From Diphasiastrum complanatum (Eukaryota > Streptophyta > Lycopodiopsida > Lycopodiales > Lycopodiaceae): a stretch of 64,000 nucleotides of DNA. Of the stretch, positions 5,641 through 60,600 are shown piece after piece (within the stretch, counting starts at the first letter, position 1; each line of letters opens with the position of its first letter). The notes beneath the pieces were generated by a model. That model was not told the origin of the DNA. It searched no databases and was given only the letters and a program-made list of their open reading frames with translations. The stretch lies in the NCBI GenBank assembly GCA_029204225.1, contig CM055098.1:17825303-17889302 (forward strand), given 5' to 3'. A program made the position numbers and the translations under genes.

Positions 5641-5688
5641 GAGGGACCCTCTCACGTGCCAAGAGAGGGAAAAAAAAACGCATGGAAC

Positions 5689-5741
5689 ATCCACGCGTGG
5701 ATTATCCATGCATGGATAACTTTTGCGTGGATTATCCACGC
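5689..5741. repeat. Cluster of three perfect palindromes
   Basis: ATCCACGCGTGGAT (5689-5702) and TTATCCATGCATGGATAA (5702-5719) are followed by a CTTTTGC-like spacer overlapping GCGTGGATTATCCACGC (5725-5741). The order palindrome, T-rich 'TTTTGC', palindrome is the same as in the transposon arms at 4518-4566 and 54552-54604, but the words are different. GTGAGGGACCCTCTCAC lies nearby at 5639-5655. Confidence 0.5.
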
Positions 5742-6025
5742 GAAACTTGAATGCCAATAAATTAGCATTTCCGCGAGCATTCTTGCTCCTCTTCTTTTGC
5801 TTTCAAGTTTTATAGGTTTTCTAATCTAGTGTTTAGTGCTTTTGCTTGGTATTGCTCTTCTAAGCTCTATAGATCCTACTTGTCTGCTTGCTTTTCATTT
5901 TCAAGATTCATCCTTTTGGATGATTCCAAGTACAATGTAGTACCACCTAGACCACTTATCCTACACTCTTGATCACTAGCTATAAAAATAAACCTTTTAA
6001 CATCATAAGAGAGTAGAGTGAAAAA

Positions 6026-33521: not shown

Positions 33522-36504
33522 TATTAATGTCTTTTCCATGCCAAAAGGCATATAAGACGAGAAGAGTACATATGTGAAAATGGACCAAAGACAAAACAAT
33601 GCCGTCAACAACTAAAAAAACTAAGACTAAAAGCTCTGAAATGGTCCAGGAATATATGGCGCGAAAAAACAGCCATTTACAAGGTCAACTGGACATCTCA
33701 AACTCAAACTCTGGATTCAAAGTCAAACTCTATATTCTAACTCCAAAGTAGTCCAGCACAATATATATCTATTTTGTCTCAACTAAATGCTTAGCTTCAA
33801 CAAAATGGATATTGCCGTCTCTGTAATTAGGCGTCTCCCTGTATCCTTTGCCTTTTGCAGCCCCAGTGAAGGAGGTGATAGCGATGGCCAGCAAGGGGCT
33901 GGCAACCAGCAAAGGCTGCCATCGCACCTCAGAGAGAGCAATGGAGCGATAGAGAGAGAGAGAGTGAGAGAGAGATTCTCTGACATTCTTAAACAATAGC
34001 AAATATAAGTATAAAACTTATGATCACTATTAATGTGTCTCTGTAGGACATAGACACACATGCAGACGTGCTTGCAAGCACAATCTTGTTTATACATGTC
34101 TTGTATAAGACAAAAAACTTTGTATGTTTGTAACTTTGTATACACACGTGCACGCTCTCTCTTAAGTACATAGGAAGAAAATTATGTGTAGACGAGTAAA
34201 TTCAACTTACAGATTCATGAATCTAAAGAGAGGATGGGCTACAACATTGCTAGAGAATGGCAAAGATGAACTTAGATAGCAAAGACATGACACAAACAGC
34301 AGTATTTGCAATCGATATCGTTCAAAAACCTCTGAATGCATAATTCATACAAGATATCTTCACAATAATTGTAAAAATTAAAGTTGAACAGTGAACTGCA
34401 GAAATTCTAGAAGATTGGACTTACAAAGCCATGCTGAAATTCTCTACCAATGTCAAGCTGCACCCAAAGAGCTTTTCCTAGCAGATAGAGTACAAAACCA
34501 ACTGCCAAGTATATGGGATTCCTGCACAGTGAAACTTGAAGATCAAACTTTTTTGGGTGGAAAATCAAGCATGAAAATTCTTAAAAAAACATCCTTCAGA
34601 AGCTTTGAACCTTTCACAATATGTTCATACAAAATATTTCTGAATCTTGAAAAGCTATAATCAATAACAAATGACGTTGGCACAATTTGAGGTTGATAGA
34701 CCAAACGATCTGGTACAGCATACTTGAGAGTTTTCAACTTGTAGGATGATGTGAAGAAGAACTATATATTATACAGGTGCGGAATGGAAGCTGATCTGTA
34801 CCTCAAAAGTGCCATGAACTCATTGAAGCCTAGCACAATCATAACTAAAATTGCCCATGGTGGTGGTAACCAGGAAACAGCACGTCTACTGGCTTCCTGT
34901 GGTCGATCAGACAAACAGAATGCCTCAATCCAAAATTGGGTGGTATATTAACATGAGGGCAGAACTGCAGCAGAGAGCCTTTGAGTTGAAAACACAAACC
35001 TGTGCAGCTAGTGCTTGACTAATGGTGTATTCTGTTTCTGACTTGAATTGTCTCCACAGATTTCTGCATTGCACTGGTGTAAGCAGGGTGTCTTCACCAG
35101 CAATCTGAGAAAGAAGAATGCAGAAAACTTCATGTCAGAGAATGCTCCTTCAATCTTACCAAGCAACAATTAACCTTATGTCACTTCTACACAGTGTAAG
35201 TAGCGACAATAATCCTACCCCTTCCCAAGTGCTCGAAGCAAGTGCATTGGACGCTGAAGTGATTGCAGATCTATGCTCAGAAGAAGTGAAATTGCCAGCT
35301 GATCTCTGAACAATTTCTTGACCATCTCCAATCAAACTTGTAAGCGCGGCTTCAACTGTATCAGACTTTTCATCCAGCCGTATAGCAGCTACAATTGATA
35401 GAAGCTTCAGTGCCTACACCATTTATGCACAAATCAGGATGAAGTCAAACCTAAGCTTACCAAAGAAGACCAAGCCAATGCCAGATTGCTTCTTTATTGG
35501 CAACAATGCCAAAACCTTGATTGTCCATATTATGTCTCGGGTATATGCCATGAACAGAACAACACTACTTACTGCAAGACGAGCATCTTTAGTTATTGCA
35601 CTTATATCTTCTTCTTTAGACCAAACTCTTGGCATTGATTCGGCATCATGACTAAATACTGCCATAAATCTGCATATCAATGTGCAAAGTTAGAATTGAT
35701 GAGACTGAAAGAATTCATCTACTGCGAATAACTGACAGAGATAGCTGTGTACATATTACAATGATAAAGTACAGACATTTCTTCATTCAAAATGTTAGAC
35801 TGATAGAAATAGCCTGAAAAACCATGATATCTCTCATGCGTCAACCAACCTATCCTTCATGCGCATGAGAGCTTTACTGGCTTCCTCCCTTGCTTTCTTC
35901 TCAATGACACTTCGTCCAAATTCAGATAGATCTGACAGCATTTTCTCTGTACTGTTTTCATCAAGTTCATATCCAGCAATAGCAGCGGATAAGCCTGCCT
36001 TGGCGATCTCAATTTCTCGATGAAACAATTTTCTCAAGGCTGGCCAAGTATCAGAAGAGGCAGCGTCTAGCAAGGATGCTGCAGGTAAGGCAAGTGCTTC
36101 CTCGAGACGCCTCTGATGAAAGTACGAAATATTAATAAAATAATAACTGTCTAATACTCACAAAACATTATCAATAAAGGACTACTATACGAAGCTCATG
36201 TGTTCTGTTCATATAAGATTTTGTAATTAGAAGGTATCTGAGACCATTTTCACATCACTGCCATGAATAAAACGCAATTTTGCTAGTAGACATTCACAGG
36301 AGATTTGAAAGTCAGCCTTTTGCATGCCAACAAATTTTAATCTGAACATGAGATGCAAACAATGCAGCCTAAACATGTAATTTTTGCTTACTATTGTATG
36401 ATTTACAAAAATTGATATGAAATTACTTTTCATTAGGTCATGTCAAAAGCCTCACTTTGCTTCATTATGATGACTGTTATGAGATGAATCAAAGAAAGAG
36501 GAGT

Positions 36505-36595
<91 letters not shown>

Positions 36596-36662
36596 CTTTA
36601 GAGTACTTAAGGGTACATAAGACTTGGCTTCCACGTTAAGATACATTTCCACTATGTATCTT

Positions 36663-36734
<72 letters not shown>

Positions 36735-39700
36735 CTTTAGAGTACTTACGGGTACATAAGGGTACATAAGACTACGCTTCCACGTTAAGATACATTTCCA
36801 CTATGTATCTTAACGTGGAAGCATAGTACATCTCCAATCTGAATAAGAGATGTTAATTAATATGAAATCGATTTAGTCTAAAATATCAGTAAACATTTAT
36901 ATACACATGGTGGAGCATAACAAAATAATAATGATCACTTAGATTATATATTAGTCACTCGTAGCCTGAGGCAGTGGCTGGAAAAAGCCACGATAGAGCT
37001 CGACTTGGCTAAATGCGGTAGACTCTGATGAGCTGAATGTGTGTGAGCAACTCCAAGTATGTTACTTGCTAGCTCTCGGTGCAGAAGGTCATACGGTGTC
37101 TGGGCGATGTCATAGAGCAATACATGACAGTTTCAAGTTTTGGTGAATGGTTTTAAGCAATCATTAACGTATTCCAATCAGCATGATGCTTCCTATCTTT
37201 CAATATCGATTTTATAAGACTTCAGAGCAATTTTATTTTTGCAGGTTCCAGTTGATTTTAACCATAGATGCAGCGCGTCTCTGAAACGCGTTTCAGAATC
37301 ACAGTCAGAAACGCGGTTCAGAAACGCGTTTCTGAAATTTTCCAAAAACTTCCAGAAACGTTTTTTTTTTTAAAAAAAAAATTGGTTTTTTTTTGGGCAA
37401 TATGGGTATCAGATGAAAGCTCTGATCAAGAGGATTTTTACTGTGTAGTTTGCCGACTGTTTCGGGTGCAAGATCGTCCAATTTAAGTGCATTAATCCTA
37501 TTATAATTGACAACGGAATTTAGTGTAGACAAGAAACAATGAACATGAATCTGAAATTCTGATTATAATAAAGCAAGTACATATGATGGTGCGATCCAAG
37601 CATGCACCTTGGAGAAGGGCTTCAATGGCGATCTAGAATAGACTCTAGATGACTGATCTACACAATAATAAAATGCTGAGAGAGCGAACAGCCAAAGGAC
37701 CAAGGGGATGCGAAACACCAAAAAGTGTGTTTTCACTCAGGGAGTTGGAAGGCCAAATCATGAAGAGGCCTTACCGTCGGGGCCGGGGTCTACCGGCAGC
37801 CCCCGGACCGCCGCTAGGGGCGTTGCCCCCCAAAGCCCTCACCGGGGGGCTACCTCCCCCCAAACCCCCCATTTCTCGGGGTAGCCCCCCGAACCTCCTA
37901 AGCATTTATTGAAAACCAAAGCAAATAACAACCAAATAGCTATTGAAAATAAGATCTGTTTGCGCCCCATCTACGGCACTTCTGAGAGGCAAAACGCTGG
38001 TTTGACCATTGATCCCCCAAAAATATTTCAGCCATAAGCTATTTTTCCAAAAAAGAATTTTTTTTTTTAACGATTCTGGGTTACGAATCGCGTTTCTGAG
38101 AAACGCGGTTTCAGAAACGTGTTTGCCCAGAAACGCGTTTCAGTGCAACTATGATTTTAACATGTTTGGTCAGCTCGCGTTTGGGCCTTCAAAATTTCTT
38201 ACCTTGCATTGCTTTAGCATACATACAATAAGAGTTTGTAGGTTCTGCATAATGGCAGACTTACATAAATTCCAGTGCCAAAGTTTAGGGTTCAAAGTTT
38301 CAGCTGACTTGTTATTTCAATGACACCAACAGCTTACCGCAGTCTTTTGCATTCTCTTTTGATTGGCTACTATCAAACAATCTGCAAGGTTATTTGTGGT
38401 TTTCAGTTCCACAGGTTAGTTGTTGATAGTAGAGAGGATGGACGTAACGGTATGTGTAAATGGAATTCAGAGGGAGAAATTTAGCCAACAATAAAGTAAC
38501 AGGTATCAGACCTTCTGGTCATGGTCATATGAGTGGCACCTTGTCAGCCACCTGGATTACGGCTTGGAGGAAACTTGCAGACATTGTTGTGAAGTGTTGC
38601 TTCCTCAAGAATAATATCTCATTCTGTCACATCTAAAGATCTATTCAAAGAGATTTTCTGATTAATCGCGGGTACCTCTTATAATTCAGAGGATTCAGAG
38701 GGTCACATCTACAATGTACAATCAGATCGGATGCTCATTAACAAAATGGTGACTAGTTGCATGGGAATCATTTTCCTACATGCCATCAATGGCTCTGATA
38801 CATCCATGTCACAATCTGAGAGTTGATCTTTGGCCACATTAGAGATGCCCTAGAAGAAATTGTCTCCACACGTACGAAAAACTACAAATTCAATGCTGCT
38901 AACTGCATTGTGACAGATAAAAGGAGAGGGTCGTCACATTGTATGGACACGTCATGCACTGCATCTCATAGATCTCCATATAAAGGACATTGCTAGGATT
39001 GCATGGGTCTCAGATATGTGACAAATGCACCCGTTACCATCATCATTAAGAGGCGTAAAGTTCAAACTTCATTGCATGTTCAATTACTACAGCCACAAAC
39101 TAGACAATTGTGAAGATGTACAGGACTTGCTTTGCTTGAATGTGGGTGACACTACACAAGGCTGCTAGTTGTGAAGCTAGGGCTTAGATGAATGAGTGAC
39201 ATGGGATGGCTTTGGAATGAGGAAGGCATGAGCATCGAGAAGATCACCATGATGCATACTTTTTGGCTTGAAGTTACCCTCAGACCTATTTATGAATTCT
39301 TGCACATGATGGAGTGTGAGGGTAACACCATGGGGCTACTCTACAAGTTCATGGACTATACTAGAGAGAACTTAAGGGCCAGTAATGCCACTTTATCCAG
39401 TCAAGTGCATTAGTGATTGATTGCCTATCAATTATGTTAGCCCCTAGTATATTTCAGAATTTGATTCTATGGTTATACTTTCAAACTCGATACAATTTAT
39501 AGCAGTTACCTAGAACTTACAACTAGAAGCAAAATGGCCCTTCTTACCACAAAAAAAGCACTTCTTGTTGGATTTGCAACTTGTTGATGAATGTGATGAA
39601 TCCTCATCACTCCTTGGATTTGTCCTTCTTAAAATGTTGATGTTGCTCTTTGCCCCTTCCTCTTGGTTTGTCCTTTGAGAAGAATGCTTTCTCCTCTCCA

Positions 39701-42700
39701 CCATCCTTCAAAGAAAGTTGATTGATCCTCAATAGCTTGTTCTCTTGCCTACACTCCTCGGAAATGAGAACTCCAAGCTTGGAAGCTCCTCCTTGATTGC
39801 ATAAGATTGAACAATGTTGTCAAATTCATCTCTCAATCCATTAAGGATCACTTGCACTAACTCTCTTTTAAGGATCACTTGCACTAACTCTCTTAAATTG
39901 AGATGGTCTCCTATGCAAGCAAGCTCTTTATGAAGATCGTTCACTCTCATGACAAAATTTGAGGCACTCTCATCACTCGTTTGGTAGCATTGAAAGATTT
40001 GACTCCTAAGAGTGAGCAATCTAGATGTGTTCTTGGCCTCACAAATGAATTTTAGTGTGTCCCAAGCCTCCTTGGCCGAGGTGCATGAGCCAATCTCCCT
40101 TAACACTTCATTGGATACATTCATCTTGATGATATGTAGGGCCATCCTTGCCCTCTTCTTGTACTTTTGGACCTCTTGGAACAATTGTGGCTCCTCCTCA
40201 AGTCCTAGCACAATATCCATCACTTCTTGAAGTCCAAAATTGACGCCATCCTCACCTTCCAAATGGCATAATTGGAGGTAATCTCTCACCTTGCTCCAAT
40301 AGTATGAAACCCATGGAAGCCATCTTCCCTTGAGAAATTGAATTGTAATGGATCCAAAAACAAACAAAAGTGTTGTTTCTCTCTCAAAGAAGGATCCAAT
40401 AATGGTGTCCAACCAACTCCAACTTGAGATCTTGCAACCAAAATGTGAGATCAATCTCACTAGCTATGTCAATCTCTCTCAATCTAGATCTAGCCTCTAT
40501 CCAAAGATGAAGCACAACAAAATTTTGAGCCAACTTCTTCCAAGCACAGTAAAGCACTCAAAGACTCCACAAAAGACTCAAATGCAGTTGATTTGCATGA
40601 ACCTATGTGGCTATGGCTTCAAAATCACACCTAGATCTCACCTAGACAAGATTGGCACAAACATGAGTTTTTTGATGAAACAAGCTATATGTGAGTCAAA
40701 CTTGATGTGTCCAACCAGGTTGGGTGCCCTACCCACCTCACTTTGAAAGTCTATAACTTCATCAAGACACATCCAATTGACATGAAATCAATTGCACAAG
40801 AAACTAGACTTCATTGGCTTTCCAACAAGCTATCAAGCACTAGATTTGAATCTACCTTGGAGAAACACCAACCATTCAAATTTTGGTGATCTCACATGTG
40901 CCTGAGCAGTACAGTCCATACAGTACCCAACATGGATCAATCCAATGTGTTTTTGATCCAATTTGACCTAGAAATCCCCTTGATAGCCATCGAGATCCAA
41001 CTACACCTCCAAAAACTAGATTTCAAGCCAAAAATATCATCACACTTGATGCATGCATTCAAACCTTAGGTAGGCTCTTATACCATGTGTACTTTTCACA
41101 TGTGTGGGGACAGCCCAAACAATGTGAATGATCTCCTAAGGTGTGTGTGATTGCACATAGATCTAGCACCAACAAGATAGAATCAATGTAGCTTGACAAT
41201 TCTAAGGCAAGAGCACATTAAACATGCACAAATCATTCACTATTCATCAAACACATTGAGAGGCAACTTGTGATGAAAAAAACTAAGTAAAAAAGTGGCT
41301 TGGACTCGGGTAGAGAGAAAGAAAGAAAGATTTATTAATGTCTTTTCCATGCCAAAAGGCATATAAGACTAATGAAGTACATGTCAAGTATGTGGTAACC
41401 ATGGGAGTGCACAAAAATGCAATAAAGAAAACATCTAGTACAAGCTAAAATAGACACGTAAGCAAGAGTGTGTGTACATAACAATCATATGTATCCATGT
41501 CAAGATGTCAAGATTGTGTTGATGCTATAGAAAGATGTAATGCGAGCTGCAACATGAGAAAGCGCTAAAGCCTGCTGGCGTTACACTGACTCTGATCTCT
41601 ATGAGAATGTAAGCAGCCATCATTCTCGTTGTCGTCATAATCATCATCCTCAGACACTAAGTCACGCGATCTCCGCCTAGTAAAGAAGTAATCAATGGCT
41701 GAGAGGTAAAATGCTAGGATGTCCCGTAGAAATCTCTCCGCAATATGAACATCTCGCGTACCATCAGAGCGACATGCCATGGGTCCTCATAAGCTATGAG
41801 AGAGCGTAGAGTGGTAGGCATGTCTCAAAACAAGCAGTGATATCTCCCTCTGATTTGATAGTATACAAGGCATCTAAAGATAAAATGCTCCTCAAACTCC
41901 ACCTCACCTAGAGAGCATAACTGGCGAATCCACTCCTCTCTAGGAATACCATGGAACCTCCCAATCTCAATAGCTAGCTGGTGAGAAGACACTCTGAGTT
42001 GTCCCAGTGTGATATGAGGCAATGTGATAATCCCGAATCCAAATAGCGTGGCATGACTGGGGTCCCTAATGCATTCAGCTCCAGAAAATGGGTTCGGTAG
42101 AAAGCTGGCTTAACCCCTAATTGGCTACTCCAAGTCTGCTCTAGATATGCTCGATTTGTCGGATATACTGATCGGTGCCTGACGGAAGCTCTGTGATGGA
42201 GATACCAAATGACTCAAGTAGGAGGTGAGATGCCTGAGAGAACCATGATAATCTGTAGCCCTGATCATGAAAACAATGTGAGGAGGATAGTGCAATCTGT
42301 ATGTATCGTCTGTCTATGTTTGGTAACGCCTGTACCCTCTGCTGGACTGTCGTGAGGAAAGGAGTGTAAAAGTGAAGCCAAGGACTGTCGATATAGTGGC
42401 ATGTAAATGGGATCAAATGTGTACTTGGGTGCTCGGGCAAGCATAGGTAGTGAAGATGGATGAGTGGGAGGAAGGTGGCTATATCGAAGGAGAGAAAGGA
42501 GTGATCAAAAAGGGTGGTGGGGGAAATATGGAAGTCAGAGACTATTGGTACAAAGGATGGTGACCCCATGAGATAGTCAACGACATTATGTCCTCCACTG
42601 TGAGGGTGGCATGTAAACTGTCTGAATCTGGCCAACAGGGTAAGCCATTATAAATGGCTATCTCATGTGCCTCTCCAAACTGCACTAAATGCTCACCATA

Positions 42701-43405
42701 TGGAGTAGTAGGTCCCAAACTGCCCGCAGAAGTCCTGGTAACTCCTATCACTATCAAGGGCAAGAACACGCAGCTAATCTGTGGTGTCAAAGAACTGTCT
42801 GTCGAGAAGATGTCCGGGCATTAAAATCCCCAGTGAGGACAATATGCCCCCACTCTGAGAATCTGTTGAGAGGTCCCAATAAGGAGATCCAATACCCAAA
42901 GCAAAAGACGAAGACTCTGGTGGAAAGTAACATGCTGCAATGAAAAGATCTCTATCCAAACCAATATCCTAACCCAAGATGTGAGTCCATATACAGCGGG
43001 CCTGCTCGTCGTGTCTAATGAAGTCAAGACTCGAGTGGAGAGACCCCACCTAAACCTCAGCCACTGGCAGATCTAGTCTCTCGTCGGAATACTGAGTCTC
43101 ATCTATATCCTGGAAAAGAAGGAAGTCCTCGCTCCAGGCTCTCATGTGTCTCCATAAAGAATAATACATCTCGGCCTGTAATAAAATCAACAAAATCCCC
43201 TGCAGTAGAAGATGAATGTATGCCAACACAATTCCACACTCCAATCCAAAGGTGATGTGGATGGGGCCCCGGGGTGCTCCCAACCCCATGCACCTCAAAT
43301 CCCTAACGTGATGGGCAGGTGGCGCATAGGTGGCCGACAAACGGTGGACAGGTGGTGCGCTAGGCAGGCCCGAGAGAGAGGAGCGCTAGGAGGGCGCCAT
43401 CATGC

Positions 43406-43474
<69 letters not shown>

Positions 43475-46400
43475 TGCAAAACCCTCTAAGTGTAGAATCT
43501 CAAGATCTCTCCAAAAAACTCAATGTTGAATCACTCTCTCTCACTCTCTAATAGTGACTCGAGCTCCAAGAGGTGCGGCAAAGGTGCTCAATGATTGGAC
43601 CTCTCTAGAATCACCTCTTACTTTGATTGGACCACTTACATGTCACTTCTTACATTGATTGGACCATATAGGTGCATCCTTCACTATGATTGGTCCACAT
43701 TGACAAATAAGATTATGAGGTGCAATGTCACTAGCCCTCTACCATCAAGCCAAGTGTAAGCAACCTACACTATCATGATCTAATCCATGTCTAAAATTGG
43801 CCTAACCACTTAATTACAAGTGTGCAATGAGTGATTTTGATATGGTTTTGATAGAGGACCCCCAAACCTCAAGATTAAGGCCTATTGACTATTCAAACTC
43901 ATCATAAATGAACTAAAGTGATTATGACTACCCTCCACACGTGGGAACATGCTCCACACATGTGAGATTTCACTATGTACATGAAATTGCAAAATGATCA
44001 AGCTAGATTTCCTCAAATCTTCACAAGTGGCAGCAGCTTACACAAGTAGAAGTCAAGCTGCAAGAGCAGCAAAGCGATTAACTAAATGGCCCCCACAATA
44101 GTTCAATTTGTGATTTTACTCTTCATACATGATAGGTGCCGTCAGTTTAGTAATAATTTGCAATGTGTCAACAATAAGCAGTGTGTTGATAATTAGTTCT
44201 CCTTGAAATACAGAACATAGACCACAGCAGGTGCACCCACACAAAATAATACAAGTTTAAAATTGCTAGTAAACTTGGTGTTTTTTTGCTGATCAAACGC
44301 CGTATTGTTTTTCATATTACACACTTTTTCACATCCCTGATGCTACTCGAAAGATGAGATTTTACAAAATACTTTCTTAATGCACAAGAAGCTGAAACAA
44401 ATTGCAACTTCAAGAAAAGGAAACTCTGTCCCACCTTGAATACATTCTCAATCTCTAAGAGCTTTTGTTCACGCACAGAAGCAACACAGGCTTCTATATC
44501 CCGTTGCAACTTGTCACGTGCCTTTAATGAGTCCCATCCAGCTTGAGGAATATGAGCATCTATTAGAAGAATTCAAAAAATAGCATTAAAGTGAGGTGAG
44601 AAAATAGTTTGATGATAAAGTAGCGTAGAACAATGAACCATATGTCATCCTATAAAGCACATGCAGAAGCAATAGAACATGCTCTTTTTGAAACTTAAAA
44701 CTAGAATGCTGTGCATGTGAAACAACACATGCCTGCACAGCCCTTGTCAAATTCATCCAGACAAGTTTTTCTACAGCTTTGCACGAATGAAGTGAACCCT
44801 TGATCCAGACTTTTTGAGGACAGATTGAGGTTATTCTTGAAATTGTCAAATGCTTTTGCTCGATGATGTCCAATAACAGCTTGATACGCCGGCTGAGCTA
44901 TCTGCAGATGGTCACTGGGATCCTTTTTAGAATTTTGAAACAGATTTTGCAATCCTTAAACTTCTTTCAGACATGCTGCCAATACGAACTCATATGAGTG
45001 TCTTTTCTACGTACCTCAAAAGATCGAGAAACTAAAAGGTTACGCTTCTTGTCTCGTACACTTCCCTCAAAATATGCAGCTTCTGTGTCATATCTGCAGA
45101 AAAATTTAATTATTACATCTGGAGTAAACTTTGGCTTAATCATGCTATTTGAACCCAATATCAGCATCAAATGCACAGAACCATATACTAGTTGCCCTAT
45201 TAATACAAAGCACTTTCCAGCTGAAGCCCCATATATATAAATACGAAGATCTTCCAAGAACAATCATCCCATGAATCCACAAGGAAATGGCTTTCAAGAT
45301 TGAAGTAATGCAAACCAACTCACTTTGAAAGGTGGTTGTTTGTGAAGATTGAAACAAGAAAAATGTACAACAAACATGAGAATTTCTTGCCATTTTATTG
45401 AATACTTTTATGCAATGTCTCCAGTTAATTAGCAAGTAACCTTAGGTCAGGGGTGACCTAGAGGAATTTAGGGCACTTGAATTAGCTCTAGTAGGACTAT
45501 GGTGAGGACTAGAATACCATAGCTCAAAGTTATACTTAACCCTGGTGTATGCATGACCAGGGGAGTGTGGCACCATTTCATCATCCATTGACAGTGTTAT
45601 GATGTCAGTATGGAGAGAAGTCCTAAGGTCTTCCAATGCTTGAGCTTGGCACCTCTGCTGTAACGATGGGTTGTGGTGGCGTGGGATGCCAGTTCTGGAG
45701 ACAGATCTATTGGTGTTGCTGTAGTTCCTATTGCACAAGAGTATGGTACTCTATATTGGGTGGTTCTGATATGTATTCATTGGTGTTGTTTGTAAGAGAT
45801 TCTTATAGTTCAGATCTTAAAGGGCCACTATCGAACTATATTAGCAACTTCTGCAGCTTCATTAGAAGAGCATTACATCAACAAAAAGTGAAAATAGGAA
45901 CGTTTTGATATAAAAACGTTAGTCATCTTCAAAACATTTCACAAAGTTCTTCAATCAATTCTTCCTCATACAAGACACTTTGAAATCATTTACAGGTTAC
46001 AAGCAGAAGGGTGTTCAGGGGCTAAATTCATCAAGAAACATAACCAATCAGATTCCAGCAATACATTTTGCAAAACACATAAACGAATGAGTAGAACTTA
46101 CTGACGACCACTTAATCCTCATGCAAGGCATGCTAGTTCATGAATCCAAATACAATCAAACAGTTATAAGCTACTGACTTAGACATCCCTGTCAAATAGG
46201 ATGTTGTTCCATGCCTCACAAGCTATTAGATAAGGATAAGGTTAAATTTCCTGTGATTTTCATTGTAATGAAGCTAATTGGTTCAATAACATAACATGGC
46301 CCTCTCACTGATGAAAACACAGATATGCCACATGCAATTCACATTAGTTCCAATAAGCCTCTCCAATCCCTATACTCAAGCTTAAAACATGTTACAAGGA

Positions 46401-49400
46401 TAAGCCAAAATATGAGTACTAGGCTCTAGCTATGAAGCCCGATGACATGTTTGAACTCTATTGGAGAGAACAACAGCTGAAAGCTACCCTCCCTCTCAAT
46501 AACATCCAAAAACAAAACCATTTGATGTTACACATGCAATAAAGGGACAGTTCCTCAACTTGAGGCTCTATGCTCATTCATGTGTACAATGGAAAACATA
46601 TCTCCTCTGAGTTGGAAAAATTTTGAATAGACAATCTTTCCAACCTAAAAGCTGTACCATGTCCAAAAAATGTACATGGCACAGCATATAACTCACCGTC
46701 CAACAGGAGGCAAAGATCAGAGACAGAGAAATTGTTCATTATTAAGGGTACAAGGATTTCCATGTCACCTCACCTCCTAAAAGTCAACAAAAGCAGCAAA
46801 TCAACAATATTATCTTTGTAACAATAGCCCAGCATGTAAAAACCATCGAGAAACTCCACTTAGAGAAATAGAAAGTGTATAACAGGAACAATGCCAGAAA
46901 GCCAAAAACAAAATAGGGTCCAAGACTTCAATAATCTGGCAGGACCTTATGCTTCACAGTCCTTGCAAAAAAACTTGCTCCCCCATCCAAGCCCACTTGG
47001 GAACCACATAACTATAAACCATAACTATAACCATAAACCACTTGGGAACCACATAACTATCAATCACAAGCGCCTCTACCAAAACTTGCAATTGACACAA
47101 GTACAAACAGCCAAAAAGTCCTTCAAGGCCTTTAGTTTCCAAAATGTGTGATTGCAGCATTTCGAGAATCATTGAAAATTGACGGCTTCCTTTTCCATCT
47201 ACAAGATTTTATTCAAAAGTGTTCTAGAAGTATACAAATTCCACTCCATATTCTTTTTGGAAAAAATCAAATTTGTTGAAAAAACACCAAAATGTTCTGT
47301 TAAGAACATTAGAAGAACATACTCACCCGCTGATAATTCTGTCCAAAAGAGCACGTAACCTGTTGCCAAACCCGATAACTGGGCCACTGTTTGCACTTTC
47401 TTGTAAGTCTTTCCATTCCTAGAAAATTTTCAACAGAAATATTAGTTGCATGTAAATAACTGAATATCATCAAAACGACCCAAGTACAGCCCTTTATACT
47501 AGTTATGAATACCATTTAGGCTTATCCAAATGATAGTTGAAGACAACTATTTGGTCCTAGATCGCAATTGGAGCTTAGCCATATTGCATTGTCACTTACC
47601 CAATTAGGCTTTTTAGAAACTACTTGCAAAAATAGCTAGGGCAAATCGGCTTTGACATCGAGAAGTTCTAGACTAGATCAAAATGTGAGACTAATGCCCT
47701 TAAATAACCCATTAATAGAAAACACAGCTCTCAAATTTTATGAAGCCAACACCTCCCTTGCTTCCTATGAGGACTCATATAGGAATTAAGTGGGTGCTAT
47801 TTGGAAAGCTCAATGCATTCCATCTCTACCAATGAGGAAAAACGCATGTTTCTTTAAGGAGCATTAATTAGCTATGAAACCTTTAAGATTTTTTAGATCA
47901 ACTTCTTTGGATCTTGCATTGATTTTCTTAATTATAAATCAAGTGAATTCATTCCACAGTGCAACAGGGAAATTGCACTCTTGGCATGCTTGAAGAAGAT
48001 TGATGTTTTCAATGCAATTAACAAATAACATAAAGAAATCTACAAATGGCGACTAAGATAATTGCAATTCAAGGTTGGCATAATAAGATGAGTACTGTAT
48101 TTTTCTCATTTACATCATCAGATCCATTCACAGTTCTCTGGCATCGTGATTGTGTAATACGAGAACCAACTTGGTAACTTTCATCGTTATGAAAAAAAAA
48201 CTTAACACAGCAATTGCAGCTCAGAAGTCAAACCCCACTCGATAACCATATACATAGAAAACCAGCATGATCTTAGATGCTCTAATACCATAGGATGAGA
48301 ATAACTCAACACATTCTATCTGCCTTCCAAGCTAATTCAGCATCTTTGGATCTAGAATTCTTACATCCATGATGTCCTTTCATAAAAAATGCTCTGTCAA
48401 ACCTTGAACTTACCTTGAAAGGTCCACTACATTGCCCACAATGACATCACTCAAAAGTAGAGTGAGAAGGCAAGGATTGCTTTTAAATTGCAAACTTCCA
48501 AGAAGGAAATTCCTTGAGAGCAGTTCAACTTATATGCATTATAACGTTGGAGAACATTTGGATACAAATTTGACTTCTAGTATCAAATTCAACTTCCAGG
48601 AAACTGTCAAAATAAGTTTCTACATGAATGAGACTTAAATATAAGCCTAGTGAGTTTGAGGTATATGCTTCAAAGCCTCAAGCCAACCTGCAGTCATTTA
48701 CAGACACATTGGCTGTAAGTTTGAAGTGGATACTCAAATGCTCAGTACCTCATGAGATGAGAGCTCTAAAATCTTCTGCTGAGCAATCTCGTCACATCGA
48801 ACTGTGGCAACCATCACCTGCATGGAGGATGCAACAGCCAAATCCCAGATTCATAGGCTGCTTCTTACCCATATACTGGCAAAGAACAATGATTTCATGT
48901 CTTACAAGGTATCAACTATACTATACAAGTGTAAGAGGTAGGAAAGGAAAAACAAACTGGATTTGATCAACAAAAAAGGAGTTGATATTGAAATCAGGTC
49001 ACACAGGTATTGCTGAATCAATCACAATTTTTTGGGATGGTGCTTGCCTTGTGAGCTGGAAGATCAAGATCCTTGTTTTCTTTTATTATTTTCCACATTT
49101 CCTGAGCACTCAAAGAGAATCCTCCCCCTGGTACAACAGCTGTTCTATCACCAGCAAGTCCACCAGGAGCAATTGAGTCCATAAAACGTGTCTGTAGCTG
49201 AGCAACCTACAGTAGAAAAGCTGTGCTTAATTTACGGATCCGGTTTCAAGCAACAATGTCATGATGAAAGCAAAAACAGTCAGTTATTCAATACTTGTTC
49301 TTGGAACTGTTCTTCTTTCTCCTCATAGCTAGCAAGAGCAGTCACTTCCACCTGAGAAGCCACCAACATGAAAAACATTCTTGTTTACAATAGCTGACGA

Positions 49401-52400
49401 GAATATCAAAATCATTATTGCAATACCTTGATTATCACTAGAGGATAATATGATACTGAAAATTTTAAAACACAGAGAGAGGCTGTAACACACAAACTTA
49501 CATTAAAAAAAGTGTCCAAAGGCGTAGTTTCAAATTTTGAAGGCTTTGGGACTGAGTCCCATATCTGCAGTCAGTGAACAAATCATTGAACACCCAAATT
49601 ACTCTACTGAACAAACACCAGCCCAGTCTAAGTGCCACTTCAGAATAAACTTGAAACATTCTAAGAACCTTATAGCTTTCTCATCACTGATTTGAAACAT
49701 CATTATTCTTCTGAGCCAATTTTCATGTGTTATAACGCACAAATAGTAGACACATCAAGGAGAGAAAGTTAAAGGTCATGCACCTTCCTTATATCCTCAC
49801 GAAGTATAGGTTCTAATATCTCCAATGGAGTCTGTTCTCACATGTTAGGCCACAAGCACACATCAATTAGAAAACCAACACTTTCAACCTTTGTGCTTTG
49901 ATAGCCTGAAAACGGCTGTAATCTGATGTCTAGCTTCAATCTCTTATCTAAGAACACGTGACTCAATCTTGAGATTGAAATCCGGACAGCTTGCACAGGA
50001 AACTCAGTCAATCGATTTTGAAGAAAAGGCAAATTTGTTTGACTCAATGCTGACTCAAGTGCTTGCAATACCAAGAACCAGAGATAAAAAGGACACATCC
50101 ACGTTTCTGAAAAACCAACTATAAAAACCATGTCCATATCATTGAGCTATAATACATTGTAATTATGTAAACCTTCCTCTGAGAAATAAAAAAGGGAAAA
50201 GTTAGCTGATTAGGAATGTCTATATGAATACGGAACTTTGAAACAATAATCATTAAACACAAATCAGTTGCTTGTTTCAACCTCAGAAACCTGTTCACGT
50301 TCCGGAACGTACTGAACATACTGGTCCAGAATATGCTAAGAAGAATTTCAAAAAATACCTAAGAAGTAGTACATAGCCTATACTATTTGTGTGAATGGAG
50401 GATGTACTTTTGGCCTCATGGATCCAACAGGACTGATCTGAAATCTGAAACAATGAGCATTATGTTGATCAGCTAATGCTTTATCCTGATTTGTTGGAAG
50501 CATACGTTTGTGCTGTTCGATTGGTGTTGCCTTTACACTCTGGGCAAATACAATTTGGATACATTCAGACAGTAAACATTTTTTGATAGTTTGATCAATG
50601 TTAAAGAACTAAGACCCGATTTTCAGGAAATTCAAAGCTGCTGACTGCAGTTTGCTTAAATCTCCCAGTTCAGTACCCCACGTGCCATTGCTGTTTCTCT
50701 ACAATACATAGAGCAAAGCATATAAATGTCCAACAGCACATTTGTATGGATGGACAATGTACTTTTAGCCTCAGAATTTGAGAATGACTGTTCCATCTTT
50801 AAAAGAAAGCCTAAAAATCATAATGTCAACATTCATTCAAGCAGGAAAGGACATTCCTCATTGTTTTGACAGACAGGCTCTGAAGTGAGCAAGACATAAC
50901 AGCAACTTTGTGAAAACAACAATAAGGTGTCCTTAGCAGCATTTCATTCATCTGAAGTACAAAATAAATGTAGAACTGAAGCATAACAATTACTCCAGTC
51001 TTAAAGAAAAGACACATGAAGACATGTATGAATGCAAAAGAACTTTAAAAACAGCAGAGTTTCAAAAAATTCATGTCCAGTCCAACAGCTTCTTCCAATG
51101 ATAATGAAGTCAAGAAGTTTGCTCTTGCAACCAGGTTCACACCTTTGTCTTGTCACGGATGACAAAAAGTAGTGTTGTCCTTCGTGGAGTAAATAGTCGC
51201 ATCATCACCTGAGGTTAGGAAACAAACTGTAGCGTTAATCAAAGTTAACATATGCTTGGCCGTCTACAATATGTAAATGAGTTTCTCCCACCTGGAATAC
51301 AGTCTTCAACAATGGTTTGTTTGCAGCATGCTCACGACCAATATCATGGCACCACCTGCAAGTAGCTTAACTAGAAACATCACTTTAGAACATAGAACGG
51401 TAAATGCATTAGCTTTATAAAAAACCAAACAAAGTTCATGCCAAACAAGCATTTGGCTGGAAAGCAGAAAAGTAGATGGCATGATACTCAAGGTTAATAA
51501 TCCTTACATATTAATGAGAACAATATCAGATACTGCCAAAGCAAAAAGGGCACTCTGCTTCTCGAAAGTGGTGTCATCCTGCACACAGCTTCGCACAGTC
51601 AAGGTGTCCTCCCAATCTAAAGCGCCCTTTTTCCATTCATATGCAAATCCAATCGTTGACAATTTCTCTGGATACGTAATAAACCTACTGGATCCATACC
51701 TTCTAGACCAACTACCAAAGCTAAACGTTACAGTGAGCAAGAACAGTATGTAGTAAACACTTCAGTCTTCAGACACTGGCGGAACAAAGTACCTCTCCTC
51801 TCTCCCTTCCATCTGTGCCTTCCAAATCCAAAATCAATGTACATGGCTTCAGTCCAACAGCCTTTGCAAGCCAAACTCCTTGTGTTGTCTGGCTCCTGAA
51901 ACCCCAAAAGCAAAGCACAGAATGAGGAATCCTTAACTCACAAGTAGGCAAAAGGGGACCATTTCCATAGCAGAAAGTTCAATGGTAGCCTATGGAGAGA
52001 CACTGACCTTCCTTTGAATGCATCCATCTCTCTGAAACATGTGTGAAAAAGGTGATTCAATAGTGTACTCTTTCCTGCTCACGAAATATCGAAAAAATAA
52101 ATCATGACAGAGCATACAGCCTTGTACAAAAGAGAAACTATAAAAAAATTGGCTCTAAATATTTCAAGTGAATGTAAAGAGGAACATGAAGTTATTCATT
52201 GTCTCAAGAGCAACTTTCAGGATTCTGTTACCTACGATGGTTATTGTGACACAGGATGGTTGTATACAATAAAAAGATTCCTGACGTTACGGGAATCTGT
52301 TCAGCAGTAGAGAAATAAAAAAATTTGAAACCGGCATAAACTATTATGTGCATAATGACTGCATACCTATACATACTGATTTTAAGCAAATACTCGTGAA

Positions 52401-55400
52401 CTGTCATGTTCCGACAAACAAAAACTTCAAGGGGCAATGGTCAAGAAATGTCAATTATCGGATCGATAGAGAAGGTTGTATAAAGAATTACATCAGGTTT
52501 AATCCTACAAGACAGTCCTATTGAGAACTGTGTAGTTAAGAATCCCAGGAATATTACGTTGCAAGACACTATGTAACCAGGCATAATCAGTGTCCAAGCT
52601 CTTACGGACAGAGTCATTATTGAGCCTAGATTGCCAAGAGTTGCAGTAAATGACAACAACCAAACTTCTAGATGAGAGGATTATGATAAGCATAAGGATC
52701 GAAATCTCAGACTCAAAGTTATTCCCGTATTCCAATAAGATCTTAGGAGGGTTGCAGTACTTACAAAAAGTGGTCACTACTAATTTCTACCTAGCAACTA
52801 TCCCTCTCTCTCCCTACATAGTGTGGAATTAGGCATACATAGGATCTCAGTTGATACCAATTACATCATGTGGTGAGCAATTGCTTCGTATAGGTAAGTT
52901 TCATGAGTTTGTCATTTTCCATAGTTATGACGTATCTAGGTGATCACTAAGTTTGTGATTTTCTCTTGGCCTGCCTAATCACAAGATTTAAACCCAAAAA
53001 GTTCTTGGAAGATCCTTTCCTACTTTTAAGTAAAATTAAAATGGGAAAGAGGAAAAGGGTGCAAGATTATATTGAACGGGTCAAGCATCTCAGATCAGAG
53101 TGTGATCCTGAACTAATTAATAATGACGCTATGATTATGTGGTTTTTAGCATGTCTACCTAAAAGGATTAGATGGGAACTCAAACGTCGAGCAGATTATA
53201 CGTCATTAACATGCAATGGACGATGCAATACGCGAAGAGGATGAAGATTCAGATGATGAACGAAACATTGGTATGCTGCCATATACAACGGGGCAAACCA
53301 CTACATCATCCACAACTACTGCATCTACAAACATTAATGCAACAACTGAGTTGATGATGGATGAATTTCAAAAACTTGGTCAGAAGCAATAGATGCAGCT
53401 AGAGAAGATGCAATCACAGGTTCGATGCAAAGTTGAAAGCACTACAAGAGCAAAATGCGAAGATTGAAAAAGCAACTAATAAAACGGTTAAAACATTTCC
53501 TAGCAGAGAAAATGTGTGGTGTGTGATTTGTGCTGGAAATTACACCATAAATGAGTGTCCAACACTGAAACGGCATGTGAAGGATAGTTATTGTCATCTA
53601 TGCAATTCTACCGAATATGATCAAGGTTGCAGTCCGCGTTCTGGAACGCAATCCGGGATTTCCCATTAGGGTTTCCCGAAACGCAATTTTTTTTTTGTAT
53701 AGTTGCCAATATGGGTATCATGTGAACGGATATCAAAAAAGCGATTGTTATGCAGGTCTGTTGCTTGGTTTCAGATGGCTGCAGGCTACATTGATTAGAA
53801 ATTTGGACATCAGTAGATGGTTTAAGAAAACTGGCTGCATTTTTATATGGTTTCAGAAATTTGGACATCAGTGGTTTAGGGTTTAGGGTGTAGGGTTTAG
53901 GGTTTCAGCCATAGATGCACCGCGATTCTGAATCGCGATTTAGAATCGCGATCAAAATCGCGTTTCGGGATTTTCTCAGAATGGCGCAGAATCGTTTTTT
54001 TTTTTTGAATTTTTTTTAGGCAATATGGGTACCAGATGAAAGCTCTGATTAAGAGCATTATGACTGTCTAGTTTGCCGACTGTTTCGGGTGCGAAACACC
54101 AAAAAGTGTGTTTTCACCAGCAGGGAGTTGGAAAGCCAAATCATGAAGAGGCCTTACCGTCGGGGGGGGGGGGGCGTTACCCCCGGACCCCGCCGTTGGG
54201 GGGCATTGCCTCCCAAACCCCCCACCGGACCCCCTGTTTCTCGGGGGGCTACCGCCCCCCGAAACCCCTGTTTCAGCTATTCCAAAAGAAGTATACAATT
54301 CTCGCTAGTCTAAGGAAGGCTTCTTCTAACTCTTTCTATCATTTTCTAACAGAAAACGGAATCAGTAGATCTGCAAACCATTGGCATCAGAACACCATTC
54401 AAAACTGATTCCTGATATCTATTGGAAAAGCATGTCCACCATTCAATTATGGTTTAGTTAGTATTAAACTCAAAAAAAAAAAAATTTGGCCATTACTCCT
54501 TTTTCCACAAAACAAAAAATAAAATTTGCGATCCGGGTCGCGGATAGCTGACGTTCCGGATCGCACGATCCGGAACGTTTTTGCAGCGGATCGCGATCCG
54601 CTGCAACACATAATATGATACAGCTTTTTGCTCATTTAATCCTCGGGTTATTCAGCACACATATTGTAAATATCAATACAGAGATAATCCAAATTGGAAG
54701 GGACCTGATGGTAAGGCCCATGGTCTTGGATTTCCGAAATGATTAGCTTTGCCAGCTCCTCCAGCACAACATGTTCCTTCTGCGAATATGATGGAACCAA
54801 AATCTTCGGTTGGTAATGACCAATGGAATTACAATATTGATCAAGATATTGGTCCTTCAGAGGGAATAGATATGGAATGTCCTTGCTCTTCTTCTCTCCT
54901 CCTCCATCTCTCATGTTTTCTTTGGATTTGCTAATTTTTGGATTTGATGCTTGTGGAGTTTATCTTTATTATAATTTTTGTGAGAGAGAAAGAGAGAGAG
55001 AGAAGAGTAAAATCTATCATTGTTGAGTGTGTTAATGGATGTAGTGTTAATGGATCATAGTGTTAATGCTTAGTGTTAGATGTGGATCATGAGCATTTGC
55101 TTGATTATGAACTATGTTATCGCTCTCATGGGAACGAATTTCCACGTGACAACAAGTTAATCCCGCTATTGGAAATACCCGCTACAACCCTATGGGGCTA
55201 TTGGAGTCATATGCACAGACGCCAAGCTTGACATATTTCTATCCAAGTTAGGGTTGTCTGCCCATAGGGCTATCCAACCCATTCGATTTTCAGCACTCGT
55301 GTAATTGTCAACATTTTTGTGTGCTTTTGACTCCCCATTGCTTTCTAGCATTTGACAATGTCCCATGTCTTTGTGTCAGTCAAGGCCCTTTGTTCTGCAA

Positions 55401-57186
55401 GATCAAGAGACAAACAATGGATATTGAGCGCAAACAAGGATGGTTTATTGGGTCTCAGAGTACGTATGACAAGTATTTGCCAAATCCGCTGGCATTGTGA
55501 GGTGTGGTGGGCAAATCTGCCCTAGACACGTTACTGCTCTTGCCACTAGCATCCTAGCTCAAGATTGTTCGGCTTCAGCTTGTGAGTGGAACTAGACCAC
55601 TTGGTTTCTGATGCAAACGAAGAGACAACGGGCTCACTATTCCCTAACTAAACAAGTTGGTTTACTATGTGACCACTAGTCTGGCACATGCGATGGTATG
55701 CCTGGATACATGAACGTCCAAGAGTGCCTTACTTCCATTGACACACAACAGTCCCTGCACACATGAAGGCTGTAGTTGATGGTGATATCTTTTCAGAGTA
55801 TCATCAGGAGATGGTACATCATGATAGGACACAGCAGTGCAAGACCACTAGGTCCATGGCTAGGGCCGATGCCGAGGATGCAGGAGACGAGGGTGGGGAT
55901 GAGGTTGAGGAGCGAGACGAGGAGGAGGAATTTGATGAGGAAGAGGCTCTGAATGATGAGATGGAGATGGAAATTGGTGAAGATGTGGGTCTATTGATCC
56001 TGATGCCAAGACGCAGGCCGAGCCTACATCACATGTTTAGAGTGAGGGTTTATAACATTTCGCATTAGAAAATGATTTAAAAAGAGAAATTTGCCCGCAC
56101 CAGAGGACTTACCTGGGGAATGTAGAACTTGCCACAAGTCCCTTTTCATGCGAAGGGAATTGTTGGTACATGCAAAGGAGGCAAGCTTGCATGGTAGAGA
56201 GCAATTTTCAGCAAATAGGGCTGTGGATTGCACCATCTTCAGGTAGCAAACTGGTGATCAGAATCAGGGTGTGCATGGCATCAAAAAAAAATTGTGATGG
56301 AATTAAAATCCCAGCCATAAAATCAGCGAATACATCTGCTTAACAGGCAGTTAAGTAGGCAGTGGCAATTGCTCATTTGCAAGTGAATAGAATTCCATCG
56401 CGTTGAGAATTTGCCGCATCAAGGGCTGCATCCTAAGGGTTATACAAGCTATAAATGCAGTCTGCAGCAGGGAACAGTGATTTGTGGAGGGAGCTAGAAG
56501 TGAATTCAAGGCAGAAAATTCTGCCTTCCTAAGTAGCGAATTTAAACCCAGGGGCAGCAAAGTTTTGGAGGGTAATTGTTGCATGCAACCACAGTTTTGA
56601 AGCAGAATTTTTGCATTTAAAAGGCCAAATTTGAAAAAGGTGGGTTCTTTGCTTCAGAAGGGTTACAAAGGTTGATTAGTAGCAAAGTTTCTAGCCCACA
56701 ACCATGTCCAGCCATTCTCTTCTTTTGTGGAGGGCATTGGCTCCCCATTTGCAACTCTTTCCACTAACATCATCTCCTTCTCAAAGAGAGGTCATGTGGT
56801 GCTTCTGAAGGACTTCAGCACCCAAACATCATAGATTTAGTTTCATAATGCAGAAGCTGACCGTCTACAACTACATACGTGGGACAGTGAGGACCTAGGT
56901 ATCACTAGGACATCAGCCGACGATGATGGACCAGTCACGTCTTATAGCAAGCATTTGCTTTGGATGGGTGAATCTCATGAATTGGTCATTTCTTACAATG
57001 TTGTGTCGAATCGCAATTCAATGAAAGAACTGCGATTCGAACGTCCGGTTCGAACCGGCCCGGTTGAACCGTTCTTTTGATGTTCGAACGGTTTTTAAAA
57101 ACAAAATAAAAAACCCCGTTACCTGCTGTCCTCGCACGTTTCCAGAATGCAGAGGAATCCGAATGCAGACTCCAGAGGATCCCGAG

Positions 57187-57241
<55 letters not shown>

Positions 57242-57257
57242 GGGGGGAGGTAGATTT

Positions 57258-57300
<43 letters not shown>

Positions 57301-57310
57301 ACAATGACAA

Positions 57311-57346
<36 letters not shown>

Positions 57347-57646
57347 AGAATCATAAATATTACTAATTTGAAGGAGAGGGAGGTAGAGTTGTGTGTGTGT
57401 GTGTGTGTGTGTTTTTGACAATGTGAGTAGTAAATTCATGATCATTTCATGGCACTTCAACTCTTCATACCCATTAGTAGCAACAACCATATTAAGGGGA
57501 TTAGAAGACTGTTCACACGAATTTTTTCATTGTTAACATTTAGAGTGTTGTACAAAGTCTGATCAAAAGAACTCAAGACAGTTCGTTCATTGTGATCATA
57601 GTGACCAAAACAAGCAAGTAAATCATGAGAGCATTTCTTAATTAGA

Positions 57647-57678
<32 letters not shown>

Positions 57679-60600
57679 GAGGGAGGGAGAGTTAGCCTTT
57701 AGCTGTGTGTGAGTGAAAAATTAGAATTTAGAATTGTCATTTTCGTGAAATTCGAATCATTGAACATTTGCTAAGTTACTACTAACTAACCATGCACATG
57801 GTACTTTGGAATATGACATATGTCACGAAAAACCCTAAAACCGATTCGCCGGTTCGAACCAAGAGAAGCTGATTCTTTCTCGATTCAAACTTGATTCAAA
57901 CATGGTTCGAAAAGGCGATTCGAAAGGTACCATAAAATACTGATTTCTTATAACCTTTCCTAGCTCGTGTGACTTCACTTGTCATCCTCATAGTGGGGGT
58001 CATAGTGTTCTCCTTCCACTAGTGTATGAAATCATTATCACACCTACTAGGTGAGCTAGCTTGACAAATTGGGAAAATTTCAATGTTTTATTGAAACGCG
58101 TTTCGAACGATGAAACGTGTTCGAAACGCTACATACAAAACGGCCCCGTTTCGCAACATCAAATGTACGTTCGAAACGACTATACAAAAAAAAAAAAAAA
58201 TTGCATTTCCACATTTTTCCAAGAAGCGTTTGCGAGACGTTTAGTGCAATAGAGAGCCATTCGAAGAGGAGAAGAGCTCAGGTGAAAGAGAGAGGGAGAG
58301 GGGGAGAGGGAGAGAGGGAGGAAATTTTGTGTTTTTTTGTTTCAAGCTTGTAATCAAACATGAGAGAGAGGTAAGGTTGATATTGTCTTTTTGATGTCTG
58401 TGTGGATGAAGATGAGGATGAGAATGAAGGTGAGCCTCATGATGGGGAGGATGACCTTGAGGCCATGCACGACGACAGCTTCCGAGGTGGGCAGTTAGAG
58501 GCTAGAGCACTTAGCATACTATCATACTAGCATAATACATATGAGGCTTGAGCCTGGAAGCTACGCTTGAAACTCTTAATAATTATGCTTTTACTATAAA
58601 GTTTAAACTTTTGACTCTTGAATTGTAATTTGTGATTTGTTAGTGGTCACTACAATTTATAACTTATACTATTTATAATTTCTGGAATTTCTTGGATGTT
58701 TGAGACGGTGACATGCATTGTGCATCTGTCATGAGTCATGACTCAACTTTGAAGTATTCAAGTATGTACTATGGAATATATTTTATGTATTATAGTTATG
58801 ATTAATCATGATTCATGTATTTTGTAAATTGTAATCTGTATTTCAATTTTTGGGTCACCGATAAGTCATAATTGGTCACGTCACTACGTGTGAACTTTGA
58901 AGCATTCAACAATGTGAACTTTCAACTTAATCTTGTATGGAGTATGGCAGTTTGCACATTGGAGATAGAAAAGTGGATGTATCTACTTAGTACTAGTCTT
59001 TCTATGCATGTCTAAACCCCAAAAACCTATAAAAACACATTTTCCAAAAAAAAAAAACCTAAAAAAGTTTCCCGTTTCGAACTTGGACCTCTCGTTTCGA
59101 ACGCGTTTCAAACGAGTTGAAGAAACATTGTTCGGGATTGTGCTCTAGCTATAAGTTCCAATACCCATAAAAGCAAAAAAAAAATTATCAAAGTAATGTA
59201 CTTTGTTATTGTGGTATTATATCCATCATTGTGTGATTGATCCTAGTTTCAATGTGTTGAATTATTGCATGACCTATGAATGCTAAACAGCATCTTCAAA
59301 GATTTCCTAAATGATCAAAGCAATTGTGCTCTCAATTAGGGCTTCTACACACAACTTAGTAAGCTCGAAATTAGAAGTTGAGTGCAGTCATCGTGCGAGT
59401 TTTGTGCAAGATCCAAGCTTTGTTAAATGATAGCTACATTTAACTTACCGCCATGTATTTATTAAGCTATTGGTCGTGAACATGCCTAGTATGTCGGATA
59501 TGGACACAATATGCATCCTATGTTTGAATGGCACATGCCTGCAAGAAAGTAACTGGAGGGCTGAGGCATGCATAGAGGAACAGCCATACAACCATATGCA
59601 CTTAAAGCAACATCGAATTAAGAGCCATGCGATATGGCCCATGGGAACTACATAAAAAACCTATTTCTAGGAATAGACCAATCATGTGTGGAGGCGGGAC
59701 TGAAGTCATGCATCAAGTTACCATGAATATCAACTACTCTCTAAAAGCAAAAGCAGGAGGGAAAACATGCTAAGGTGCCAAATCCCTATGAATGAAACCT
59801 AGGATGGGAGAGAAGACTTGTGGAGAATCGTAAAAAGGAAGACCAGCCTCATGGACAAACTAAATTTATGAGCAAGAGAACGCACTTGTGAAACGTTTGA
59901 AGGCCGTGAAAAGTCATGAGCTTTCAAGGGACTCTATTGGTCAATCAAAGAAAAGGGAATACGATTGAAAAAGAAGGGACGTGAGTTTTGAAGCCAGCCA
60001 ATTGTCAATCTATGATGTGCAATTGCACTACTAGAAAAAACACCGTATGCACAAAACAGCCAACCAGTCACGAAAATCTGTCCCAAATTCAACCACAAAA
60101 CCAGCAATTTGTGACAACTGCTTAGAATAAGTTTGGTATCACGGATGAAATCATTTTGAAGCATGCAGGAAGTTTGGGAAAGTTCGAAGTGAGCAAGGAG
60201 CAGCAGGTCAGGTGGGTCTTCAACCATCTTGTTGCAAAGATACTTCATGAAAGTACATCTGTGACCTGCACGTTGGTACAATCTGCGTGAAGCTTGTGGA
60301 AAGACTATAGGAAGATAATTTTATGCAAAAAGTAATCAGGCCACCAAAAGACTCGTGAACCAGCCAGCGTGAGGATGATTCACCGGATTATCCAATCCTG
60401 GCAATGGTCAGGGTACAAGAGGATGTTCTTGTTCTTGAAATTTGTAACATGTCTATTGCTAGCAGATATAGGTTGATTGCTGATTGTTGCTGATTGGTCA
60501 TCATACTAAGTAATCAAGTAGAAGCTAATGCTAGTATGGATGTGTCAATAAAAGTAGGATATACCCATAGAGTTATGGACTACAGGGTACGTACGAGATT

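Follow-up and report, generated by a model that had tools for sequence, protein, structure and literature searches.

Palindromic subterminal arrays with overlapping end words in probable hAT-type transposons of Diphasiastrum complanatum

Sets of subterminal repeats have been reported for most hAT transposons (PMC10368747), and, as far as the excerpts of the cited papers that we draw on throughout extend, the named motifs differ among Hermes, Ac and Herves (PMC3260210, PMC3143072). In Hermes, two subterminal repeats arranged as a quasi-palindrome are bound by a pair of BED domains, which also require an adjacent AT-rich stretch, and in Tol2 a perfect palindrome follows the terminal repeat (PMC10368747). 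The sites of the Ac transposase are given as ACG, TCG and A/TCGG on both strands (PMC1978519, citing Becker and Kunze), AAACGG hexamers are described in Ac/Ds (PMC3260210), and for binding by the Herves transposase the short motif CG/AATTCAT at both ends of that element is both critical and sufficient (PMC3143072). Here we analysed a 64,000-nt stretch of Diphasiastrum complanatum (assembly GCA_029204225.1, contig CM055098.1, positions 17,825,303-17,889,302, forward strand), hereafter the window, in which an initial annotation had placed transposon copies at 37263, 53622, 53910, 56996 and 58081. These are called E1 to E5, and two extra arms E6R and E7R; all coordinates are those of the window on the + strand.

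We assign a probability of about 0.77 to the reading that E1, E2 and E4 are decayed non-autonomous cut-and-paste transposons of the hAT type, that E3 is a relative of E1 with a single arm and that E5 is probably another such element. A non-autonomous hAT reading is favoured by duplications of 8 bp, by ends that are short and imperfect and by arrays of subterminal repeats. The elements look like a variation on a known design. With maize Ac/Ds they share the half-site AAACG of E1 and E5, which corresponds to the first five letters of AAACGG, and they differ from it in longer perfect palindromes, in related members with different words and in that no Ac-like transposase was found alongside. The likeness to Hermes and Tol2 lies in inverted subterminal repeats arranged as a palindrome or quasi-palindrome beside an AT-rich stretch, bound in Hermes by two BED domains; however, their site is AAGT without CpG and the right end of Hermes is without BED binding, whereas the sites here are CpG-centred, several per arm and at both ends. 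Herves resembles the present elements in having a short motif at both ends, but the motif is another one and the excerpted description contains no palindromic array. The initial claim that no named plant family is defined by such ends thus overlooked the subterminal repeat sets of most hAT transposons and the differing motifs of Hermes, Ac and Herves (PMC10368747, PMC3260210, PMC3143072). Turnover of palindromic subterminal words within one family is not described in the titles and abstract openings among the matches listed, a weak negative that leaves subscription papers mostly uncovered.

Elements and target duplications

Perfect 8-bp target-site duplications (TSDs), the length expected of hAT elements, flank E1, E2 and E4 (8/8 in each), and these three elements stand exactly where they had initially been placed. 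E1 (37263-38153) has palindromic arms and the ends CATAGATGCA and CATAGTTGCA, which match at 9/10 end bases, and it lies between copies of ATTTTAAC at 37255-37262 and 38154-38161; the direct repeat becomes 10 bp when the element's last two bases are included. E2 (53622-54611), in which E3 is nested, lies between copies of AATATGAT at 53614-53621 and 54612-54619 and has GTTGCAG in common at its two ends. E4 (56996-57942), with the ends CAATGTTGTG and CAGTATTTTA and palindromes with the words GATTCGAAC and CCGGTTCGAACCGG, is flanked by ATTTCTTA at 56988-56995 and 57943-57950. The ends are short and imperfect in all three elements, with 6/10 matching bases in both E2 and E4. Terminal inverted repeats of hAT elements are short and begin with CA. 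Here CA stands at both ends of E1 and E4 and at the left end only of E2, a left CA having been demanded by the scan itself.

The remaining two elements are less clearly bounded. E3 (53910-54269, with an uncertain right end between 54269 and about 54293) can be aligned with E1 over the left arm and the interior, whereas the right arm is gone. The sequence GTTTCAGC stands on either side of 53910-54269 (8/8) and is ambiguous as a TSD: near-identical letters occur inside E1, so GTTTCAGC may be element sequence. Plant-type telomere-like repeats (TTTAGGG) adjoin E3 on its left at 53872-53906, within E2. E5 (58081-59130) is an element-like pair of arms with CAATGTTT at both ends and the words GTTTCGAAC and GAAACGCGTTTC, and it has no TSD.

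All 64,000 nt were scanned for non-simple 8-bp direct repeats 100-3000 bases apart, with CA at the left inner end and at least 6/10 matching end bases. It yielded 14 pairs, compared with 3 to 13 across 20 Markov-simulated windows. At least four CpG in both 90-base arms were found only in E1, E2 and E4 among the 14 pairs and never in the 20 simulations, where the CpG cut was chosen with the elements already known and the simulation preserves dinucleotides, not local CpG clusters. This coincidence of TSDs with CpG-rich arm pairs in three cases argues against a very improbable account of the locus, namely that CpG-rich decayed DNA yielded palindromes and matching words by luck, which were then selected by eye.

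Mutator-like elements have TSDs of about 9 bp (8-11) and long terminal inverted repeats. In E2 and E4 the TSD measures exactly 8 bp, at the edge of that range; the arms of these two are little colinear, and those of E1 and E5 are somewhat so. Ac/Ds proper has 11-bp Ac terminal repeats and AAACGG hexamers; here AAACG is a main half-site in E1 and E5 only.

Palindromic arms and the hAT assignment

The arms consist of subterminally placed CpG palindromes and hairpins in arrays that adjoin A/T tracts, as the transposase-binding repeats of hAT elements would be expected to, with words that include AAACGCGTTT, AATCGCGATT, GATCCGGATC and GGTTCGAACC. Both arms of E1, E4 and E5 carry such arrays, and those of E2 do too, but with unequal words. 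The left array of E1 (37273-37360), with the half-site AAACG and the words TCTGAAACGCGTTTCAGA and TTCAGAAACGCGTTTCTGAA, contains 18- and 20-bp palindromes (fold z -6.25), and its right array (38070-38143) has mostly AAACG and two AATCG half-sites in the half-site census (fold z -3.88). Word comparison gave GCGTTCTGGAACGC and ATCCGGGAT in the left array of E2 (53632-53684; fold z -2.09), which is not among the self-word clusters, and the right array (54528-54606; fold z -6.98), homologous to E6R, consists of two adjacent near-perfect hairpins (ATCCG/GATCG) with a 26-bp palindrome at 54581-54606. The palindromes of the left array of E3 (53920-53993; fold z -4.62) have the half-site AATCG and include AATCGCGATT. 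Leading half-sites are AAACG in E1 and E5, AATCG in E3, ATCCG and GATCG in the right arms E2R and E6R, and AACCG, GTTCG and AATCG in E4.

Perfect palindromes of at least 12 bp number nine in the 11 arms, whereas 1000 shuffles had 0.61 on average and never more than 5, and 8/11 arms fold as single strands better than all 200 shuffles. The left arms of E2 and E5 were each equalled by 4/200 shuffles and the right arm of E5 by 116/200; in the folding, half-site, word-likeness and rotation comparisons, E6R included one base too many. Long palindromes and folding above shuffles thus also count against luck, for which the palindromic 8-mers would speak, since taken alone they are unremarkable (12 compared with 6.3, the largest of 300 shuffles being 15).

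Transposases of hAT elements carry a BED finger and a hAT catalytic/dimerisation domain. At 38662-39410 (+), 0.5 kb to the right of E1, lies the broken remnant of a hAT-type transposase (DUF659), interrupted by several stops and frame changes. The match was obtained with joined pieces (E 1.2e-7, 32 bits). A Pfam scan that covered three stop-free pieces from E5 and the stretch left of E4 (55742-56065, 56076-56243 and 58381-58527), but not the interiors of E1, E2 and E4, detected no hAT domain. The remnant suggests that hAT-type transposase genes were once present in this genome, and the intact target duplication of E1 suggests that E1 is an insertion separate from it.

Several observations weigh against the hAT assignment. 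No intact or linked transposase was found, and for this reason transposase binding of the arrays is something that we only infer. The 32 bits of the DUF659 match fall below the curated Pfam cut-off of 34.7. No TSD was found for E5, whose left flank recurs (8/8) at 61126 without a matching end, and the right end of E2 lacks the initial CA. The density of [A/T]CG is not specific to the arms: it amounts to 4 to 18 per 95 nt in the arms, to 21 and 20 in stretches resembling long terminal repeats (LTRs) at 16846 and 10601, and 274/11,746 windows outside the arms reach 9 per 95 nt. CCG cores, which the Ac rule in its simple form does not cover, are abundant in the words of E2 and E6. In the described systems, Hermes BED domains bind the left end only (PMC10368747), Herves binds its two ends unequally (PMC3143072) and certain Ds1 elements are mobile although they lack AAACGG hexamers (PMC3260210), so matched arrays at both ends are not obligatory for hAT elements.

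Words within and between elements

A 21-base interior word, GCAATATGGGTATCAGATGAA (37397-37417), just inside the A/T tract, ties E1, E2 and E3 together: it has three matches at no more than 3 mismatches (0 in E1, 1 in E3 and 3 in E2), and 0 were expected in shuffles. By this single interior word E2 appears to be part of the E1/E3 group, and because the three elements have the word in common, one family carries differing end words. The zero expectation also argues against luck, and chance as the origin of the elements is largely refuted.

We compared left and right arms over the four two-armed elements in the window (E1, E2, E4 and E5, the last included despite having no TSD) in all 24 permutations. 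The true pairing gave the highest summed likeness of the 24 with exact 5-, 6- and 7-mers and also with 8-mers allowing one mismatch, where four elements permit no permutation P below 1/24, which leaves some room for chance. With exact words, the own arm was the best match for E1, E4 and E5 but not for E2 (0.15, 0.06, 0.01), whose arms have few exact words in common and whose left arm is nearer to the arms of E1. When one mismatch was allowed, the own arm ranked, for left/right out of 10, 1/1 in E1, 1/2 in E2, 2/3 in E4 and 2/1 in E5, and the arms of E4 matched those of E5 as well as one another.

The initial annotation had described a word that is private to each element and kept between its own ends. 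Its observation is partly confirmed and its interpretation partly supported. The own pairing does rank first of 24 when within-copy pairs are scored against permuted ones on these four pairs, with E2 and E4 giving mixed results, and the related left arms of E1, E2 and E3 do differ. However, GAAACGCGTTTC is common to E1 and E5 and TTCGAAC to E5 and E4, which makes E5 intermediate between E1 and E4, and the right arm of E1 contains the half-word of E3 (AATCG). Together with the E4/E5 arm matches and the few exact words shared by the arms of E2, these overlaps led us to reject fully private words; the end words are overlapping dialects rather than private names.

Under plain shared descent, the arms would be long terminal inverted repeats of old age, and the two arms of an element would resemble each other only through a common family founder; we regard this as unlikely. 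In-order alignment of the arms does beat dinucleotide shuffles (z 5.2, 3.8, 2.5 and 2.7), the true order beats nearly all rotations of the right arm in E1 (4/64 as good) and E5 (2/64), and the clear homology of E2R and E6R extends to their order. Yet order adds nothing for E4, where 46/64 rotations are as good, and little for E2 (14/64), and the arrays of E1 and E3 diverge far more than their interiors. In E1, the true order scores 77, whereas the average is 70.9 over rotations and 47.7 over shuffles. The similarity of left and right arms therefore resides to a large part in words and survives reordering, and a plain colinear long inverted repeat by itself is insufficient, failing for E4 and being weak for E2, with E1 and E5 partly colinear.

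E1 and E3 are identical at 10/10 end bases, at 65/72 and 70/72 positions of two interior stretches (135/144) and at 52/75 positions of the array, the difference between array and interior being significant (p 3e-6). Rapid change is not unique to the arms, because a GC-rich stretch is also poorly conserved between the two (54/73). The very GC-rich segments at 37775-37905 in E1 and 54160-54265 in E3 contain inverted pieces (e.g. GGGGGGCTACC...CCCCCC). A 242-bp segment of E1 (37467-37708) with TGC at both junctions is absent from E3, through insertion in E1 or deletion in E3.

Within the array, AAACG has become AATCG from E1 to E3 at 4/6 aligned half-sites and is unchanged at 2/6, with a seventh in a gap; the placement of gaps around the second E1 word is arbitrary in this alignment. 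In one palindrome both sides are altered, in another just one. Independent changes simulated at the array's own rate, with free choice of position and base, produced a swap this strong or stronger in 2% of simulations (P 0.02). The evidence for a swap is thus suggestive and by itself compatible with chance, and the initial statement that random decay would not do this goes too far. The alignment of E3 with E1 and the replacement of the word in place hold for the left arm and interior and for four of the six half-sites, but two half-sites are kept and the right arm is absent. Likewise, the four half-sites changed alike as a coordinated change would have them, but the right arm of E1 already has two AATCG. 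CpG positions were not preferentially conserved between the arrays of E1 and E3 (17/22 compared with 35/53, p 0.42) or between E2R and E6R (18/24 compared with 39/48, p 0.55); in the E1/E3 interior they were if anything less conserved (21/29 compared with 168/188, p 0.03).

Concerted evolution by conversion, in which inverted words and folded-together arms template each other without selection by a transposase, is a tentative alternative that we consider rather less than probable. It is in line with the strong hairpins, with the half-sites changed alike and the palindrome altered on both sides, and with template switching, a documented mutational route reported to homogenise inverted-repeat arms (PMC8604942). 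Conversion would nevertheless be incomplete, as E1R is a mosaic of both half-words, E3 retains the E1 half-site at two positions and the arms of E2 differ in exact words; moreover, the differences between the E2R and E6R hairpins resemble plain decay, not compensated change. Conversion, selection or shared descent could each be what keeps the arms alike in this one window.

For the hAT reading we propose the following mechanism. A hAT transposase provided in trans would bind half-sites of the arrays, as inverted pairs, through its zinc-finger (BED) domains, and the same transposase would serve both ends; similar words on both arms could then arise because both ends answer to one transposase. 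Between lineages, the bases flanking the CG core may drift or turn over. The change from AAACG to AATCG would replace an ACG core by a TCG core, both reported for the Ac transposase, and may therefore be nearly neutral for binding, so that a single transposase might tolerate either core. The swap could then be read in an ordinary way, as drift among tolerated sites, perhaps aided by template switching or conversion, which may homogenise adjacent inverted repeats and so carry one word through an array. It is conceivable, if distinctly unlikely, that the binding-word sets at the ends of one hAT family are rewritten concertedly by hairpin-templated conversion between tolerated cores (ACG, TCG), giving lineage dialects that escape cross-mobilisation. 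Should the words indeed change in concert, with terminal repeats and interior left as they are, such families would be a natural record of co-change between transposase and binding site, and would show how non-autonomous elements diverge into groups that different transposases mobilise. What the window offers is a set of three related left arms whose words differ, and a plausible route from ACG to TCG, not a proof.

Additional arms and neighbouring sequence

The link between E1 and E2 and two further arms were absent from the initial annotation. E6R (about 4500-4573), a right arm homologous to that of E2, was recognised as a self-word cluster and by alignment (fold z -4.30). E7R (5676-5749, ends guessed) is an arm-like hairpin array with a different word, ATCCACGCGTGGAT, seen as palindromes and a self-word cluster (fold z -6.33). 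Left mates of both arms were searched for in the window and none was found. Exact matches to the shared interior numbered 0 in viral_contigs and 0 in genome_contigs, collections of viruses and prokaryotes in which little was expected, and Rfam gave 0 matches at gathering thresholds within 36800-60000.

LTR-like stretches near Copia-like coding remnants lie at 10591-10790, 13131-13350 and 16761-16990, with dense ACG/TCG words (AACGA, ACGAAC) whose arrays exceed the density of the transposon arms in places. A Copia query had 373 relatives; among the 120 listed, the top hit was 44% identical and the highest identity was 54% over 62% of the query, and those with names were mostly from plants. The segments 13215-14076 and 16885-17726 have three direct repeat blocks that are 90-94% alike. 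To the left of E1, at 36500-36815, a 149-base unit with a TG/GA microsatellite occurs in two tandem copies that are 85% alike, beside inverted copies of ATGTATCTTAACGTGGAAG.

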